Of a DNA stretch of 64,000 nucleotides, positions 1-56,972 are shown piece by piece. The translations under genes were made by a program, and so were the position numbers. The DNA is from Longimicrobium sp. (GTDB taxonomy: Bacteria > Gemmatimonadota > Gemmatimonadetes > Longimicrobiales > Longimicrobiaceae): assembly GCF_035474595.1 (NCBI RefSeq), contig NZ_DATIND010000155.1, positions 62,001-126,000 on the forward strand, given 5' to 3'. Numbering within the stretch: the stretch's first letter is position 1; every line of letters begins with the position of its first letter. The notes beneath the pieces are model-generated. The model did no database searches. It had not been told where the DNA came from and worked only from the letters and a program-made list of their open reading frames with translations.

Positions 1-1143
1 GAAGCCGCCCCAGTCGAAGAACAGCCCGTGCGGGCTTCCGCCCTTCAGGCTGAACACCGCGCTGTCGCTCTCGGTGGGCGCCAGCATGCGCTGGCCGGGC
101 ACCGTCTCCAGCGCCAGCACGGGCACGCCGGGGCCGGTCTGCGCCATCACCGCGTAGCTTTGCGTGGACGACGAGGCCTTCGCGGCCACCTCGCTGCTGG
201 CCACCACCTGCAGGTCGTAGCGCCCCACCTCGGCGCCGGCGGCGCTGCGCACGCTGAGCTGCTTGGCCTGGGTGGACGCGGCCTGCGCGTCGGTCAGGCT
301 CACCAGCCCCACCAGCGTGCGGTCGTCGCTCTTCTGCACGTGCACGGTGGCGCCGGCGCCAAAGTCCAGCGTGGCCCCCGCCAGGTTGCGGCCGGCCACC
401 ACCACCAGCGTGGGCTGGTCGGGCTGCAGCGTGGGGGTGAAGGCCAGCGGCACCGGCACCGTCTTCGGCAGCACGGTGAACATCTGCCGGCTGCTCTCGA
501 ACACGCCGTCGCCGCCGGCCCCGGCGCGGCGGCTGGCCAGCACCTGGATCACCAGCCGCTCCAGCGGCTGCAGCGCCGGCGAGGCCGTCACCCGCAGGGT
601 GAAGGTCAGCGCGTCGATGCCGGTGGCCGCGTCCTGCGCGGCGCTGAAGCCCAGCACGTTCACCGCGGCGCGGGCGGGCCCGCGCAGCGCCAGCGTCCCG
701 TTGTTGTACGCATCCAGCAGGTTGCGCCCGCGCACGGTGATCTGGCTCTGGGTGTCCTCGATCACCACCGGCGGGGTCACGCCCAGCACCTCGGCGGCCT
801 GGCCGGGGGTGTTGGCCACGTAGGTGTAGCCGCCGGCCAGCGAGGACGAGCTGCCGTCGGGGTTCACCACCGTCACCGTCACGCTCCCCGCCTGCGCGGC
901 GGCGGGAATGGTGGCGGTGGCGGTGCCGTCGTCCTGCACGGCCACGTCGGTGGCCGCCGTGCTGCCGAAGTAGACCTCGGCTCCCTCCTGGAATCCGCTG
1001 CCGCCCAGCGTGGCGGTGATCCCGCCCGCCAGCGCGCCGCCCACCGGCGTGATGGAGTCCAGGCTCAGGGTGGACCACTCCACGGGTGGGTCGTCCCCCG
1101 GAGGGGGCTGATCGTCGATGGTCGCGGGCATGCCGGTGTCCAT
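1..1143 (-). CDS. IPT/TIG-domain protein, C-terminus cut by window edge
   Basis: The frame is open from an ATG at 1143 to base 1, giving 381 residues with no stop, so the C-terminus lies outside the window. Residues about 25-110 (LDSITPVGGALAGG, then GGSGFQEGAEVYFGS and VTVTVVNPDGS) are a clear IPT/TIG immunoglobulin-like fold. Residues about 115-230 and 235-330 look like further beta-sandwich modules (VTPPVVIEDTQSQITVRGRNLL; FTPTLQPDQPTLVVVAGRNL). TIG domains are usually found in extracellular or cell-surface proteins. No signal peptide is visible at this start. The start is supported by GGGAGG four bases upstream. Two terminator-like hairpins lie in its upstream region. Function is unknown; adhesion or carbohydrate contact is only a guess from the fold. 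Confidence 0.8.
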   Translation of the reverse strand, partial: MDTGMPATIDDQPPPGDDPPVEWSTLSLDSITPVGGALAGGITATLGGSGFQEGAEVYFGSTAATDVAVQDDGTATATIPAAAQAGSVTVTVVNPDGSSSSLAGGYTYVANTPGQAAEVLGVTPPVVIEDTQSQITVRGRNLLDAYNNGTLALRGPARAAVNVLGFSAAQDAATGIDALTFTLRVTASPALQPLERLVIQVLASRRAGAGGDGVFESSRQMFTVLPKTVPVPLAFTPTLQPDQPTLVVVAGRNLAGATLDFGAGATVHVQKSDDRTLVGLVSLTDAQAASTQAKQLSVRSAAGAEVGRYDLQVVASSEVAAKASSSTQSYAVMAQTGPGVPVLALETVPGQRMLAPTESDSAVFSLKGGSPHGLFFDWGGF

Positions 1144-1245
1144 GGTGCCTCCCGGATGGGGATGGAGATCGGGGGGCGGCGGAGTGCCGCTCCCGGTGCC
1201 GGCGGGCCCGTCCGAGCTGGCGCGCCGGGGCCTGGGAACGCGAAA

Positions 1246-1276
1246 AAGGGCAGTGGAAGTGGATTCCACGGCCCTT
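1246..1276 (-). terminator. Terminator-like hairpin 1 upstream of the TIG gene
   Basis: The arms AAGGGC and GTGGAA pair with TTCCAC and GCCCTT around a short loop. On the minus strand the stem is followed by a T run (CTTTTT). It lies about 100 bases upstream of the TIG gene start and is a near-copy of the hairpin at 1350-1381. Confidence 0.6.
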
Positions 1277-1349
1277 CTGCGCGTGTGTCTGGACGGCCCG
1301 CCCGGCGCGCTCCTCTTATCCGGGGGAGGCGGGGCTGGCCCAAAACGAA

Positions 1350-1381
1350 AAGGGGCGGTGGAATTGCTTCCACAGCCCCTT
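1350..1381 (-). terminator. Terminator-like hairpin 2, tandem copy of hairpin 1
   Basis: AAGGGGC and GTGGAA pair with TTCCAC and GCCCCTT, and TTTTCGTTTT follows on the minus strand. It may end transcription of the cation transporter gene, 270 bases upstream. The flanks (GCCGTCC on one side, a GC-rich block on the other) are shared with hairpin 1, so the unit of about 105 bp is a tandem duplication. The bases between 1440 and 1640 are markedly less GC-rich than their surroundings and contain no gene I can support. Confidence 0.6.
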
Positions 1382-1650
1382 CTGCATCGATTTCCGGACG
1401 GCCGCTCCGGCGCGTCTCCCCGCCTCGCTCAGCGGGGGAAGATCACCCTCGCGGTGCCGTTCCCGTGAGACAAACTACAGGATTTTTCCAGGAATCTCAA
1501 GGGAGATTGGACAAATTCGGACGATGGATCAATCCCGCTTATCCTTGGGTAGATCAGTGGTTTAGGGAGATGCTAAAATTTTCTCTTCGTCCATTTCATG
1601 TACTCCGGAGGGGACGACGTTCTCTCACCTTCCGGACGCTCTCCCCGCCA

Positions 1651-2565
1651 TCAGGGGCGATGGTCCTGGAGCGCGGAGATCTCGAGGTAGAGGAGGAGCC
1701 GGTCGGGCGAGGCAGCGCGGGTGCGGCGCTCCAGCTCGGCGATGGCGGCGAGGACCTGCTCGCGGGTGAGGCCGCGGCGGAAGGTGACGTCCAGCGTGAC
1801 CAGCACCTCGTGCGGGGCCAGCTGCATGGTGCGGATGCGGCGCACGTCCGCGTCGTACATTCCCGCGGCCGCGGCGGTGATGCATTCCACGATGTCCGCG
1901 TCCGCGCGCTCGCCGATCAGCAGCCCCTTGCTCTCCACCAGCAGCACCCCCGCCACCCCCGCCATCACCAGCCCCACCCCGACGGAGGCGGCGCCGTCGA
2001 AGTACGGGTTGTCCAGCAGGTGGCCCAGGAACACGCCCAGGAACGCCAGCGCGATTCCCGCCATGTCGGCGATGTCCTCCAGCACCACCGAGAAGAGCGA
2101 CGGGTCCTTGCCCTCGCGGATGGCGGCCCAGAAGCCGCGGCCGCCGGCGCTCTCGCGGAACTGGCGCAGGCCGACCACGAGCGAGCCGCCGTCGAACAGC
2201 GCGGCGAAGCCCAGCACCGCGTAGTTCCACGCCGGCGATTTCAGCGGCTCGGGGTGGAGAAGGTGCCGGATGCCTTCGTAGACGGAGAGCCCGCCGCCCA
2301 GCGCGAAGAACAGGATGGCGACGATCAGGCTCCAGAAGTACAGCTCGCGCCCGTGGCCGAACGGGTGCTCCGGCGTGGGCGGGCGGCGGCTCCGGCGCCG
2401 GCCGAGCAGGAGCAGCAGCCCGTCGCACGCGTCCACCAGCGAGTGCACGCCCTCCGCCGCCATCGCCGAGCTGCCGGTGAAGGACGCGGCGGTGAACTTG
2501 GTCGCGCCGATCGCCACGTTGGCCGCGATCGATGCGTAGATCGCCGCGGCGGACTCCTTCGCCAT
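1651..2565 (-). CDS. Cation diffusion facilitator (CDF) family transporter
   Basis: A 304-residue inner-membrane protein of the CDF family, which exports divalent metals such as Zn2+ against protons. Visible are the first transmembrane segment (IYASIAANVAIGATKF), the metal-site helix HSLVDACDGLLLLLG with its H-x3-D pair, the family signature HPFGHGRELYFWSL, a further EDIADMAG helix and a C-terminal cytoplasmic domain ending in DRLLLYLEIS. The signature resembles the FieF/SLC30A9-like branch. The open frame extends upstream to 2724, but the ATG at 2565 has GAGGAG before it and starts where family similarity begins. The metal cannot be read from sequence. Confidence 0.9.
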   Translation of the reverse strand: MAKESAAAIYASIAANVAIGATKFTAASFTGSSAMAAEGVHSLVDACDGLLLLLGRRRSRRPPTPEHPFGHGRELYFWSLIVAILFFALGGGLSVYEGIRHLLHPEPLKSPAWNYAVLGFAALFDGGSLVVGLRQFRESAGGRGFWAAIREGKDPSLFSVVLEDIADMAGIALAFLGVFLGHLLDNPYFDGAASVGVGLVMAGVAGVLLVESKGLLIGERADADIVECITAAAAGMYDADVRRIRTMQLAPHEVLVTLDVTFRRGLTREQVLAAIAELERRTRAASPDRLLLYLEISALQDHRP

Positions 2566-2884
2566 CCGTGCTCCTCGCCCGAAAACCGCCACGACCGCCG
2601 CGACGACGTCATCCCGAGCCGTCCCCGCGCGCTTCGCGGCCACGATAGCTGTCAGCCGCCGGGGAGGGGGCCGGCTGCGTCCGTGGCGGGCGCTTCGGGG
2701 GAGCAGGCGCCGTGCCGTCCACATCGACCCCGTGGGTGGCGAAGAATCCGGCGGTCACACCATTTTGATGGAGGCCGGCAGGCCGGTCATCGATTTAGCG
2801 GTACGTGAAACGCTCGGGCCGCGAGCGCGTACGGACGTCCGGTCCAGCTCGCCCGATCCCCCTTCAGCGTTGGGAGATGTGCCC
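2566..2884. other. Divergent intergenic region
   Basis: This lies between the outward-facing CDF transporter and the small membrane protein gene. It should hold promoters for both. I see no convincing -35/-10 pair, repeat or RNA structure in it. Confidence 0.4.
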
Positions 2885-3214
2885 ATGAACCTCGATTCGG
2901 TGATCAAGCTCCTGGTCATCTGCTCCGTCATCGTCCTCCCGGCGATCGCGGTGACGGCGCGGTTCGCCCTGAAGCCGATCGTCGACGCGATCCTGCGGCT
3001 GAAGGAAGGGGGGATTCTTCCCGAGGGCGCGGCCGCGGGCACCCTGGCGGGCGAGGTGCGCCTGGCGCGCGCCGAGCTGCAGAGCCTGCGCGACGAGGTC
3101 GCGGCGGTGAGGGACGAGATGGCGCGGCTGCAGGAGGCCGAGAGCTTCCACCGCTCCCTTGGCTATGCGCCCGGCACCGAGCCGCCCGCGCTCCCGGCCG
3201 GGCAGGAATCCTGA
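2885..3214 (+). CDS. Small single-pass membrane protein with coiled coil
   Basis: A protein of 109 residues, not assigned to a named family. Residues 6-28 form one transmembrane helix (IKLLVICSVIVLPAIAVTARFA). Residues about 55-85 are a heptad-patterned, charged helix (RLARAELQSLRDEVAAVRDEMARL), typical of a coiled coil. The ATG at 2885 is preceded by GGGAG and is preferred over an upstream in-frame start. The stop is seven bases before the likely GTG start of the next gene, so the two are probably co-transcribed. A scaffold or envelope role is possible but unproven. Confidence 0.65.
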   Translation: MNLDSVIKLLVICSVIVLPAIAVTARFALKPIVDAILRLKEGGILPEGAAAGTLAGEVRLARAELQSLRDEVAAVRDEMARLQEAESFHRSLGYAPGTEPPALPAGQES

Positions 3215-3221
3215 GGCTTCC

Positions 3222-3845
3222 GTGAGGCGGCCAGCGTCGCGCCTCCGCGGCTCCCGTGCGTGGATGTGCGCCGCGGGGGCGGCGCTCGCGTGCGCGTGCG
3301 GGCGAGAGGCGCCGGCGCGGGAGCTGCCGCCGGCGGCGCCGTACCGCGGGCCGGCGGCGCGGGCGCCGACCAACCAGCTGCGCGTGATCGCATCGAGCGC
3401 CGGCGCCGTGGTCACCCGCGCGGACTCGGTGGTGATCCGGTACCGGCTGCACAACGACGGGACGGCGATGAACGTGGGCGATTTCCCCATCTTCTACCGC
3501 TTCCGCGTCTACACGCCCGCGGGAGAGGAGATCGAGCCGCGCTGGAGCGTGCACACGGACGGGTGGGGCGGCCAGCAGCGCATGGACCTGGCCCGCGGCG
3601 CCGACGGCGAGGAGCACGAGGTCAACCTGGCCTGCGCCGACGCCGCGCCGATCCGCTTCGGCGCGCGGTTCGCGCCCACCGCGGCCTCCCCCTGCGACGG
3701 CTGGCGTCTCCCCGCACCCGGCGACTACTACGTCATCGTCCAGCACGTCCCGTTCGAGCCGCCCGACGGCTCCGCCGCGAACGATCCCGCCTACCTCCCC
3801 TCCCGCGCCGACACCGTGCTGGTCCGCTACTCCCCATCTCCCTGA
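3222..3845 (+). CDS. Hypothetical secreted protein (possible lipoprotein)
   Basis: A protein of 207 residues of unknown function. The GTG at 3222, just after the preceding stop, gives an N-terminus with arginines followed by a short hydrophobic stretch ending ALACAC, so it may be exported or lipid-modified; the lipobox is weak. The mature part reads as a beta-rich domain (RVIASSAGAVVTRADSVVIRY; ADTVLVRYSP) that could be an Ig-like or intracellular-protease-inhibitor-type sandwich. No catalytic motif was recognised. It follows the small membrane protein gene closely. Confidence 0.6.
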   Translation: MRRPASRLRGSRAWMCAAGAALACACGREAPARELPPAAPYRGPAARAPTNQLRVIASSAGAVVTRADSVVIRYRLHNDGTAMNVGDFPIFYRFRVYTPAGEEIEPRWSVHTDGWGGQQRMDLARGADGEEHEVNLACADAAPIRFGARFAPTAASPCDGWRLPAPGDYYVIVQHVPFEPPDGSAANDPAYLPSRADTVLVRYSPSP

Positions 3846-4111
3846 CGCTTGCCCGGCCGGCTTCGGCCGGTGCGATGGACCCGCTCGCGAAACGCACACC
3901 GGGGGTGGGGGAAGATACGAAAGGAACGGCCCGCGAGCGTTTTGTCCGATGCATCATATCCATAACGATGGCAACGGGTTGTGGGGACGGGGAAGCATTG
4001 CGCGGGGCGGAGAAATCCCTTGAATTCGGCCAGACATCCGTTATCTTCACCATGCCTTTCCCGCCGCCCGTGCGGACCTCGCACGCATGCCCGATCATCC
4101 CGGAGAACTTC

Positions 4112-8573: not shown

Positions 8574-8693
8574 CGTTGCACGATACTACGTCCCACGATG
8601 ACGTCATCCTGAGTCGAACACCGCGCTTCGCGCGACCACGGAGGATGAAAGGAGATCGGTCGTGAGCACCGGGGCCGCGGAGTGAGCGGAATC

Positions 8694-8753
8694 AGCCTCG
8701 CGCAGTTTGCGAGGCTTTCCCGTAGTTGTTGCTGCGACTTCAGTCGCCGGTGA
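8694..8753 (+). repeat. Dispersed repeat class A, copy 1
   Basis: A hairpin GCCTCGC...GCGAGGC followed by GTAGTTGTTGCTGCG and ACTTCAGTCGCCGGTGA. Other copies are at 19960-20026, 49354-49412 (reverse) and 56900-56957. All are intergenic. Confidence 0.85.
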
Positions 8754-8780
8754 CCGGCTGCGCCCGCGCACTTTCTATTC

Positions 8781-9055
8781 AGGCCGGCCACGCCGTAACC
8801 GGCGTCCGCACAGGTGCTTGCAGGCCGAAGGATCCATAATCGCCCAGCACGTCAATCGGGAGATGCACCGATCCTGTGATCCTGCAGCGGCGACGAATCC
8901 TCCGGCGATCGTGCAATCCGGAAGCGCACGTGCGACCTCGCCTATAGATCCTTCGGCCTGCGACCACTCGTGCTGGGCAATGACGGTGTGGCCGGCCTCA
9001 GAATGACGTCTCTCTGTGTGTTCGTAATGCACAGCACATTGCCAGATCCGGTATC
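8781..9055 (-). repeat. Degenerate MITE-like element (class D), rearranged copy
   Basis: Read on the minus strand from 9055 it begins GATACCGGATCTGGCA and follows the element at 24959-25126 down to about 8905, where similarity is lost. A second, oppositely oriented partial copy (8781-8837, AGGCCGGCCACGCCG...GGCCGAAGGATCC) creates a long imperfect inverted repeat with 8942-8999. No protein is encoded. Confidence 0.7.
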
Positions 9056-9350
9056 ACATCTCGACGCAGATCACCCCGTTGCACGTGACCGCGGGGTCGC
9101 TCCCGCCGGTGCCGGTGCCCGTTCCGCCCCCGCCGCAACCCGGGGCGCAGGTGGCCTCGTAGCACGTTCCGCCGCAGCTCTGGTCCGTGTGCTCGCACGG
9201 GTATCCCGCGCCCGCGCAGGTCTCCGAGGGAGAGCAGTCCTCCCAGTACAGCGACACGTGCCCGCGAACCGTCCCGCGCGCCGGCGGCGAGTCCGCGGGG
9301 GCGAACGATTCAATCACCAGCGCGTCCAGATCCAGCCGTAGTTTCCGCAT
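9054..9350 (-). CDS. Pinensin-like lanthipeptide precursor (RiPP)
   Basis: A peptide of 98 residues. The N-terminus MRKLRLDLDALVIESF matches the leader pattern of pinensin-type class I lanthipeptides (KLxLxLDxLxVESF). It is followed by a segment with RGTVRGH and a Cys-rich C-terminal core containing nine cysteines plus several Ser and Thr residues (for example CSPSETC and CGGTCYEATC), then a Gly/Thr linker. In that family Ser and Thr are dehydrated by LanB-type enzymes and joined to Cys as lanthionines, and the peptide is exported after leader removal. No LanB, LanC, protease or dedicated exporter is visible in the window, so it would need enzymes encoded elsewhere. The ATG at 9350 is chosen because it starts the leader motif. 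It could instead be an unmodified Cys-rich secreted peptide. Confidence 0.65.
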   Translation of the reverse strand: MRKLRLDLDALVIESFAPADSPPARGTVRGHVSLYWEDCSPSETCAGAGYPCEHTDQSCGGTCYEATCAPGCGGGGTGTGTGGSDPAVTCNGVICVEM

Positions 9351-9610
9351 CCGTGTCGGCTCCGCTCGGGTGGGCATCTCCCTTGTGCGACTGGCGGGAG
9401 AGCGTTGGGGGATGGAATCCCAATCTCCTGCTAACCGAGCCGTTCGCGCAACGGTGTGACGCGTCCACCCCATGGTCCGCGTCGGGCTCGGGCGTTCGCA
9501 ACCGTCAGGTGTGGAATGAGTTGCGAGGTACTCCGGATTCCGTTACGCTGGGGGTGTGGGTGAAGGCACTCCGCCCTCTCCTCCGGAACCCCACACATCC
9601 CGGAGACACG

Positions 9611-19884: not shown

Positions 19885-19959
19885 ACTGCAGGGGACAGGG
19901 GACAGGGAGGGGCGCCGGTCGATCGTCCTCCGCAACCGGAGCCAGCTTCCGAGCCGAAC

Positions 19960-20026
19960 AGCCTCGCGCAGTTTGCGAGGCTTCCCGTAGTTGTTGCTGC
20001 GACGCTGCGACTTCAGTCGCCGGTGA
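19960..20026 (+). repeat. Dispersed repeat class A, copy 2
   Basis: The same GCCTCGC...GCGAGGC hairpin and ACTTCAGTCGCCGGTGA tail as at 8694. It has an eight-base internal duplication (CTGCGACGCTGCGAC). Confidence 0.85.
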
Positions 20027-24938: not shown

Positions 24939-24958
24939 GACCGGAACGGCGGGGGTTT

Positions 24959-25126
24959 GATACCGGATCTGGCAATCACCTGTGCATTGCAAACGCACAG
25001 AGAGACGTCATCCTGAGGCCGGCCACACCGTCGTTGCCTCGCACGGACGTTTGCAGGCCGAAGGATCCATAGGCGAGGTCGCACGTGCGCTGGCGGATTG
25101 CACGATCGATCCCCGAATTCGGTATC
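24959..25126 (+). mobile_element. MITE-like element with GATACCG terminal inverted repeats (class D)
   Basis: A 168-bp non-coding element. The left end is GATACCGGATCTGG; the right end, read in reverse, is GATACCGAATTCGG. Internal landmarks are GACGTCATCCTGAGGCCGG, AGGCCGAAGGATCCATAGG and CGAGGTCGCACGTGCGC. A rearranged copy lies at 8781-9055. No transposase is in the window, so it would be mobilised in trans if at all. Confidence 0.65.
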
Positions 25127-49225: not shown

Positions 49226-49353
49226 CGGCAGATCGAGCGGGTGGGAGATGGAGATCGGAAGGGAGATTGTACCGCGGCGGCGGGGATGCCGAAAGCGTGG
49301 GGGCGGGGGATGCGGACGGGGAAGAGAGTGAATAGAAGCTCGGGCCGTCCCGC

Positions 49354-49412
49354 TCACCGGCGACTGAAGTCGCAGCAACAACTACGGGAAGCCTCGCAAA
49401 CTGCGCGAGGCT
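49354..49412 (-). repeat. Dispersed repeat class A, copy 3 (reverse)
   Basis: The reverse complement of the element at 8694, complete. It lies upstream of the beta-lactamase gene. The rest of 49226-49576 contains the terminator below and no gene. Confidence 0.85.
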
Positions 49413-49513
49413 GGTTCGGCTCGGCAGCCGGTGCCCGCTCTCGGAGGACGGCTCCCTTTCATCCCATCGTGGTCTCGCGAAGCGGTGTTCGACTCCGCTG
49501 GACGATCCGCCGA

Positions 49514-56683: not shown

Positions 56684-56899
56684 CGAGAAGTCCTTCTGGG
56701 TTGGAGGGGACACCGACAACGCTACCCGGGCCCGCCGGAGGCGTCAAGCGGGGGCCGAAACATCGGGAGGGAGATGTAGATGGACCGCGAGCAAGGCCGC
56801 CTCGGTGCGCCGGGGAAACCTCGCTCGCGCCATGTATCGACTCCCGAAACGATGCCGTCTCAAGCTCCTTCGGAAGCCGCAGCCTGCCCCAAGCCGAAC

Positions 56900-56957
56900 A
56901 GCCTCGCGCAGTTTGCGACGCTTCCCGTAGTCGTTGCTGCGGCTTCAGCCGCCGGTG
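56900..56957 (+). repeat. Dispersed repeat class A, copy 4 (diverged)
   Basis: GCCTCGCGCAGTTTGCGACG then TTCCCGTAGTCGTTGCTGCG and GCTTCAGCCGCCGGTG. The last hairpin changed from CGACTTCAGTCG to CGGCTTCAGCCG, a compensatory pair change. Confidence 0.8.
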
Positions 56958-56972
56958 CGGAGCCGGCTGCGT

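Follow-up and report, generated by a model that had tools for sequence, protein, structure and literature searches.

The minus-strand gene at 9054–9350 very probably encodes a class I, pinensin-type lanthipeptide precursor that is modified in trans and that belongs to a very large, dispersed family with a shared leader and diversified cores. Our survey of the 64-kb window (the whole stretch of 64,000 nucleotides that contains the gene), of the source genome and of its relatives further suggests that this soil Gemmatimonadota lineage likely runs a class I counterpart of the prochlorosin system, in which one or two split LanB/LanC sets would serve a dispersed set of Cys-rich, hypervariable precursors, well over 170 in each genome; this would be the largest natural lanthipeptide library reported. 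The observation behind the original prediction is confirmed, and its interpretation is partly supported.

Translation of the open reading frame 9350..9054 (Table 1) yields, as predicted, a Cys-rich precursor of 98 aa: MRKLRLDLDALVIESFAPADSPPARGTVRGH and then a region rich in Gly, Thr and Cys, in which Cys occurs nine times. The proposal of a pinensin-type leader also stands: a profile from which this gene and its orthologue were left out recovers the leader at E = 2.6e-15, and finds no other significant leader segment in the window (the next-best six-frame segment has E = 0.36). NF038180, the NCBI pinensin-leader model, scores the 98-aa protein at 11.9 bits, under its cut-off of 24, and we therefore call the protein pinensin-type and do not file it as a pinensin. 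The ATG at 9350 opens the 98-aa frame, which is also open farther upstream; we favour this start because 174 of 179 paralogues begin with ATG at the same leader position and because Shine–Dalgarno sequences are common upstream (a tetramer of this kind lies at −18 to −4 in 162 of 178 precursors vs. 12 of 178 in a control window). Neither NCBIfam nor Pfam gave a Nif11 match, and a Pfam I2-conotoxin match below cut-off was set aside.

Table 1. Features of the precursor gene and of the adjoining repeat (window positions).
Feature	Position	Strand	Basis or remark
Lanthipeptide precursor gene, 98 aa, nine Cys	9054..9350	(-)	Translation; leader profile; G015 orthologue
Leader, residues 1-31, MRKLRLDLDALVIESFAPADSPPARGTVRGH	9258..9350	(-)	Family consensus; weak NF038180 match over residues 5-30
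Core region after GTV, 9 Cys and 13 Ser/Thr	9057..9266	(-)	Bounds provisional: 3-residue overlap with leader
Shine-Dalgarno GGAG	9360..9363	(-)	Sequence; Shine-Dalgarno enrichment across family
MITE/REP-like repeat abutting stop codon	8781..9054	.	Conserved terminus GCCAGATCCGGTAT ends at 9054

The description of the gene as an orphan fails genome-wide: it is alone in its neighbourhood, yet it belongs to a set of no fewer than 179 paralogues. The whole 98-aa protein as query gave 66 matches in the source genome (G000); NF038180 gave 127 at a loose threshold, 19 of them above cut-off; and a profile of 65 leaders gave at least 150, the worst with E = 6e-8. A local re-scan of the stretches fetched around these matches brought the genome-wide search that had been proposed with the prediction to at least 179 precursors on 56 contigs, at about 97 loci, in a draft assembly (6.57 Mb, 163 contigs, 96.9% complete, 3.95% contamination) in which the exact count may shift. 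Single genes make up 67 of the loci, and the largest arrays hold eight precursors. The 65 leaders share the consensus MxKLxLxxxxLxVESFxTxxxxxxRGTVRGxx, also rendered as M(R/K)KLxLxxxxLxVESFxT...RGTVRGx. Four precursors (C23:11398, C37:75334, C65:92235 and C97:5933) carry the first half of the leader without the GTV motif, which is thus not strictly family-wide. An excess of ACCTGC upstream was considered as a regulatory motif and rejected, since Thr-Cys codons in the tandem gene ahead account for it best; where the gene is the first in its array, upstream k-mer signals are only weak.

The presence of this leader coincides with that of a class I dehydratase domain. Scored at E ≤ 1e-6 across 61 related genomes, the leader occurs in ten (G000, G001, G002, G006, G007, G008, G009, G014, G015 and G020), and Lant_dehydr_C (PF14028) occurs in the identical ten; G003, G004 and G005, of the same genus as the source genome, carry neither the leader nor the LanB elimination domain. 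With the 61 genomes taken as independent, such a coincidence has a chance of 1 in 9e10, a figure that is overstated as the genomes are related; inside the family of the source genome alone it is 1 in 3.5e5, a figure that kinship weakens as well. Leader matches number at least 131 each in G001 and G008, 72 in G009, 57 in G014 and 42 in G015, and NF038180 exceeds its cut-off in 6 of 298 genomes of a phylum-wide sample. The precursors that stand beside LanB genes carry the same leader as the dispersed ones; in G006, which has a single leader match, a leader-bearing gene adjoins LanB. That precursor (L222, contig C30, 13242, minus strand) has a near-periodic core, SCGDCSSCTSCTSCSGCSGCSGCSSCSGC, and is possibly a low-complexity lanthipeptide.

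All LanB and LanC matches of the source genome fall outside the window, as the original prediction had it for the window, and no modification gene adjoins the precursor. A LanB/LanC locus that could act in trans, which had been suggested as the thing to look for, is present on contig C23; a genome devoid of LanB, named at the outset as the observation that would count against the reading, is not what we found. The genes on C23 are, in order, a Lant_dehydr_N truncated where the contig ends, Lant_dehydr_C as a gene of its own, a LANC_like gene, five precursors with the leader, an ABC exporter, HlyD and an S8 protease. PF04738 is found on C4 and C23, and PF14028 on C23, so that glutamylation and elimination domains are both encoded. 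Contig C4 terminates in the second Lant_dehydr_N, 86% identical to that of C23 over 163 common residues, which could be a paralogue or, in a draft assembly, a strain variant. The LANC_like match next to the C23 LanB has E = 2e-57; its zinc motifs WCHG and CHG are intact in alignment with LicM2, the cyclase part of which is its nearest solved relative, and its best NCBIfam match is TIGR03897 (LanM). The cluster of the C23 type is kept with exporter and protease in G006, G009 and G015; in G001, G007, G008 and G014, LanB, LanB-C and LanC stand together within the stretch fetched. A second, full-length LanB (E about 1e-150) is encoded in G009 (L224, C9) and G007 (L119, C322), and no leader-bearing gene was found in the 19-kb stretch retrieved around the one in G009.

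The source genome also encodes class II LanM enzymes on C25 and C136 and a RamC-like (class III/IV-like) kinase/cyclase on C87, the latter several kb away from the nearest precursor. We rejected the LanM enzymes as modifying partners because the distribution of PF13575 departs from that of the leader: G006, G007, G008 and G020 are leader-positive without LanM (G008 being leader-rich), whereas G003 has LanM without leaders. At L070, a class II LanM (297-3545, minus strand) adjoins a small Cys-rich frame (3617-3979, minus strand) with the end FCCDGTKVCCCVAPT, likely that LanM's own precursor, with a different leader.

The genes present, their co-occurrence and what is known of class I biosynthesis lead us to infer a scheme of modification in trans: the split LanB would bind the leader in trans and dehydrate core Ser/Thr; LanC would join Cys to the dehydro-residues to form (methyl)lanthionines; the ABC/HlyD pair would export the peptide; and the S8 protease would take off the leader near the GTV motif. 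One or two enzyme sets would then serve more than 170 cores, as does ProcM for prochlorosins, but with class I enzymes.

The cores are hypervariable in sequence, with medians of 41 aa, 6 Cys (range 2–19) and 8 Ser/Thr across the 179 precursors; nine Cys, earlier regarded as unusually crowded, is ordinary for the family. In C119:9821 and C119:13160 (L201) and in C149:46058 (L211), modules recur within the core (three TQCGGVQTCGGGCQVSGGGA-like copies; SAVDACPSARGC-like repeats), which suggests multi-core peptides. In lanthionine synthesis, the partner of a Cys is usually a residue derived from Ser/Thr and N-terminal to it, and a bias toward Ser/Thr before Cys is therefore the expected lanthionine footprint; disulfides need none. 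We sought for every Cys a separate Ser/Thr 3 or more residues upstream, and compared the result with a null in which Cys were fixed and the rest permuted: 97.3% of Cys reached such pairing vs. 90.0% (SD 0.8) for the null (z about 9). The mirror-image, downstream pairing is also somewhat above its null (73.9% vs. 69.8%). Upstream pairing persists after removal of similar cores (z 8.5), and replicates among precursors from other genomes (n = 38, z 4.7). Counted from N to C terminus, the running difference of Ser/Thr minus Cys never becomes negative in 159 of 179 cores, vs. 20 of 179 in the reverse direction; the position immediately before a Cys is Ser/Thr in 44.8% of cases vs. 19.4% after shuffling. 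In the 98-aa protein itself, each of the nine Cys can be matched to a Ser/Thr of its own, 3 or more residues upstream. This footprint is a statistical argument for a thioether-competent arrangement, not a structure.

These results bear on the possibility that the peptide is exported unmodified or with disulfides alone, as a Cys-rich or metal-binding small protein whose leader serves only export. The high Cys density of the cores, the frequent spacing of 4 residues between Cys and the isolation of the gene from any modification gene would all agree with it. We nevertheless consider it unlikely: Ser/Thr equal or outnumber Cys in 177 of 179 cores and lie upstream of Cys beyond chance, neither of which disulfides need; cluster-borne precursors have the same leader; and the leader and the LanB elimination domain share their ten genomes.

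It is less probable still that the split LanB feeds a thiopeptide-like or other dehydroamino-acid pathway on the same leader, with products other than lanthionines. Such chemistry would be in keeping with the Lant_dehydr_C protein, whose best match is TIGR03891 (thiopeptide-type), and with the split LanB, a trait that thiopeptides and pinensin typically share (PMC7268733). Against it, the pyridine synthase equivalog NF045556 gave a match far under its cut-off, and a LanC with intact zinc-ligand motifs stands in the cluster and recurs in relatives. A different RiPP class that merely shares the leader, as the original prediction had entertained, is disfavoured for the same LanC and for the directional placement of core residues, and by a leader that tracks the split class I LanB over the 61 genomes.

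Comparison of the gene with its closest relative shows purifying selection. This orthologue, in another MAG of the same family as the source genome (G015:C39:65352, minus strand), keeps the leader and is 74% identical over residues 1-93. The pair gives dN 0.17 and dS 0.82, a dN/dS of about 0.2; the first 42 aligned core codons give dN 0.10 and dS 0.66, and 41 of the 68 nucleotide differences lie at third codon positions. No similarity was found between the flanks of the two loci: it ends at the gene, which thus seems to have moved as a unit. That many dispersed copies, this gene included, are decaying relics of cluster genes, neither made nor modified now, would fit the unconserved flanks, the distribution that is patchy within the genus and our failure to find a sigma-70 promoter consensus upstream of the gene, but is very improbable in view of the low dN/dS with all nine Cys retained in the orthologue, the reading frames intact in all listed family members, the widespread Shine–Dalgarno tetramers and a loose TTG/TANNNT promoter pair upstream of 20 of 99 first-in-array genes vs. 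3.3 after shuffling.

The system resembles two known ones. With the pinensins (Chitinophaga; class I lanthipeptide family I_17; NF038180, leader_pinensin) it has the leader type in common, 19 of its members passing that model, as well as a split LanB (separate PF04738 and PF14028 genes) and a LanM-like LanC, both of which Walker et al. reported for the pinensin group (PMC7268733). It differs in its host (Gemmatimonadota, vs. Bacteroidota for pinensins) and in having at least 179 precursors per genome, mostly distant from the enzymes and with up to 19 Cys. Pinensins are antifungal, according to the title of a reference that the same report cites (PMC7268733); prochlorosins have no assigned function (PMC11251773). 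With the prochlorosins and synechococsins (ProcA/SyncA with ProcM/SyncM) it shares one conserved leader, hypervariable cores, few enzymes, and precursors that lie dispersed in the genome, some alone and some in tandem. Prochlorosins, however, use a class II LanM, a Nif11 leader and GG cleavage, whereas here the enzymes are a class I split LanB with LanC, the leader contains GTV and the protease is of the S8 type; and the number of precursors here is more than twice the maximum of those systems, reported as 83 per genome for the class II prochlorosin type (PMC10783134), which is also the largest set of lanthipeptide precursors in the literature that we consulted.

Longimicrobium terrae, probably of a related lineage, has three antiSMASH lanthipeptide regions with no known match; the report names clusters only and describes no dispersed precursor family (PMC7291104). 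A mining study restricted to precursors within seven genes of LanC states that dispersed prochlorosins were missed thereby (PMC7268733), and the present family would likewise be hidden from surveys of this design, which overlook most of such families. The parts are already known, namely class I enzymes, a pinensin-type leader and precursors acting in trans; for their combination at this scale, we found no description in the openly accessible literature searched. Most known cases of lanthipeptide synthesis that works in trans with high promiscuity come from marine cyanobacteria and their ProcM-like class II enzymes; in the present, little-studied lineage it is class I enzymes that appear to do so, and on over twice the number of substrates. 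The family offers a natural test set for the tolerance of LanB and LanC toward cores of great diversity, some with as many as 19 Cys, and might provide a scaffold for peptide engineering.

The overlap of a repeat with the 3′ end of the gene, pointed out earlier, is real and amounts to one base: the final base of the stop codon is also the last one of the repeat's terminus. This repeat has at least 84 matches in the source genome, some of them shorter modules or inverted pieces. A copy lies within 150 bp downstream of 6 of 177 precursors and upstream of one, vs. 2.5% for random windows; as there is no enrichment beside precursors, the repeat is rejected as a carrier of precursor genes, and we judge its position next to this gene to be coincidental and outside the precursor system. 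A further copy with the terminus GCCAGATCCGGTAT lies in the window at 24958-25108, and a second repeat module adjoins the first at 8600-8780, with copies in the window at 49329-49495, 19951-20026 and 56892-56971, and more on many contigs.
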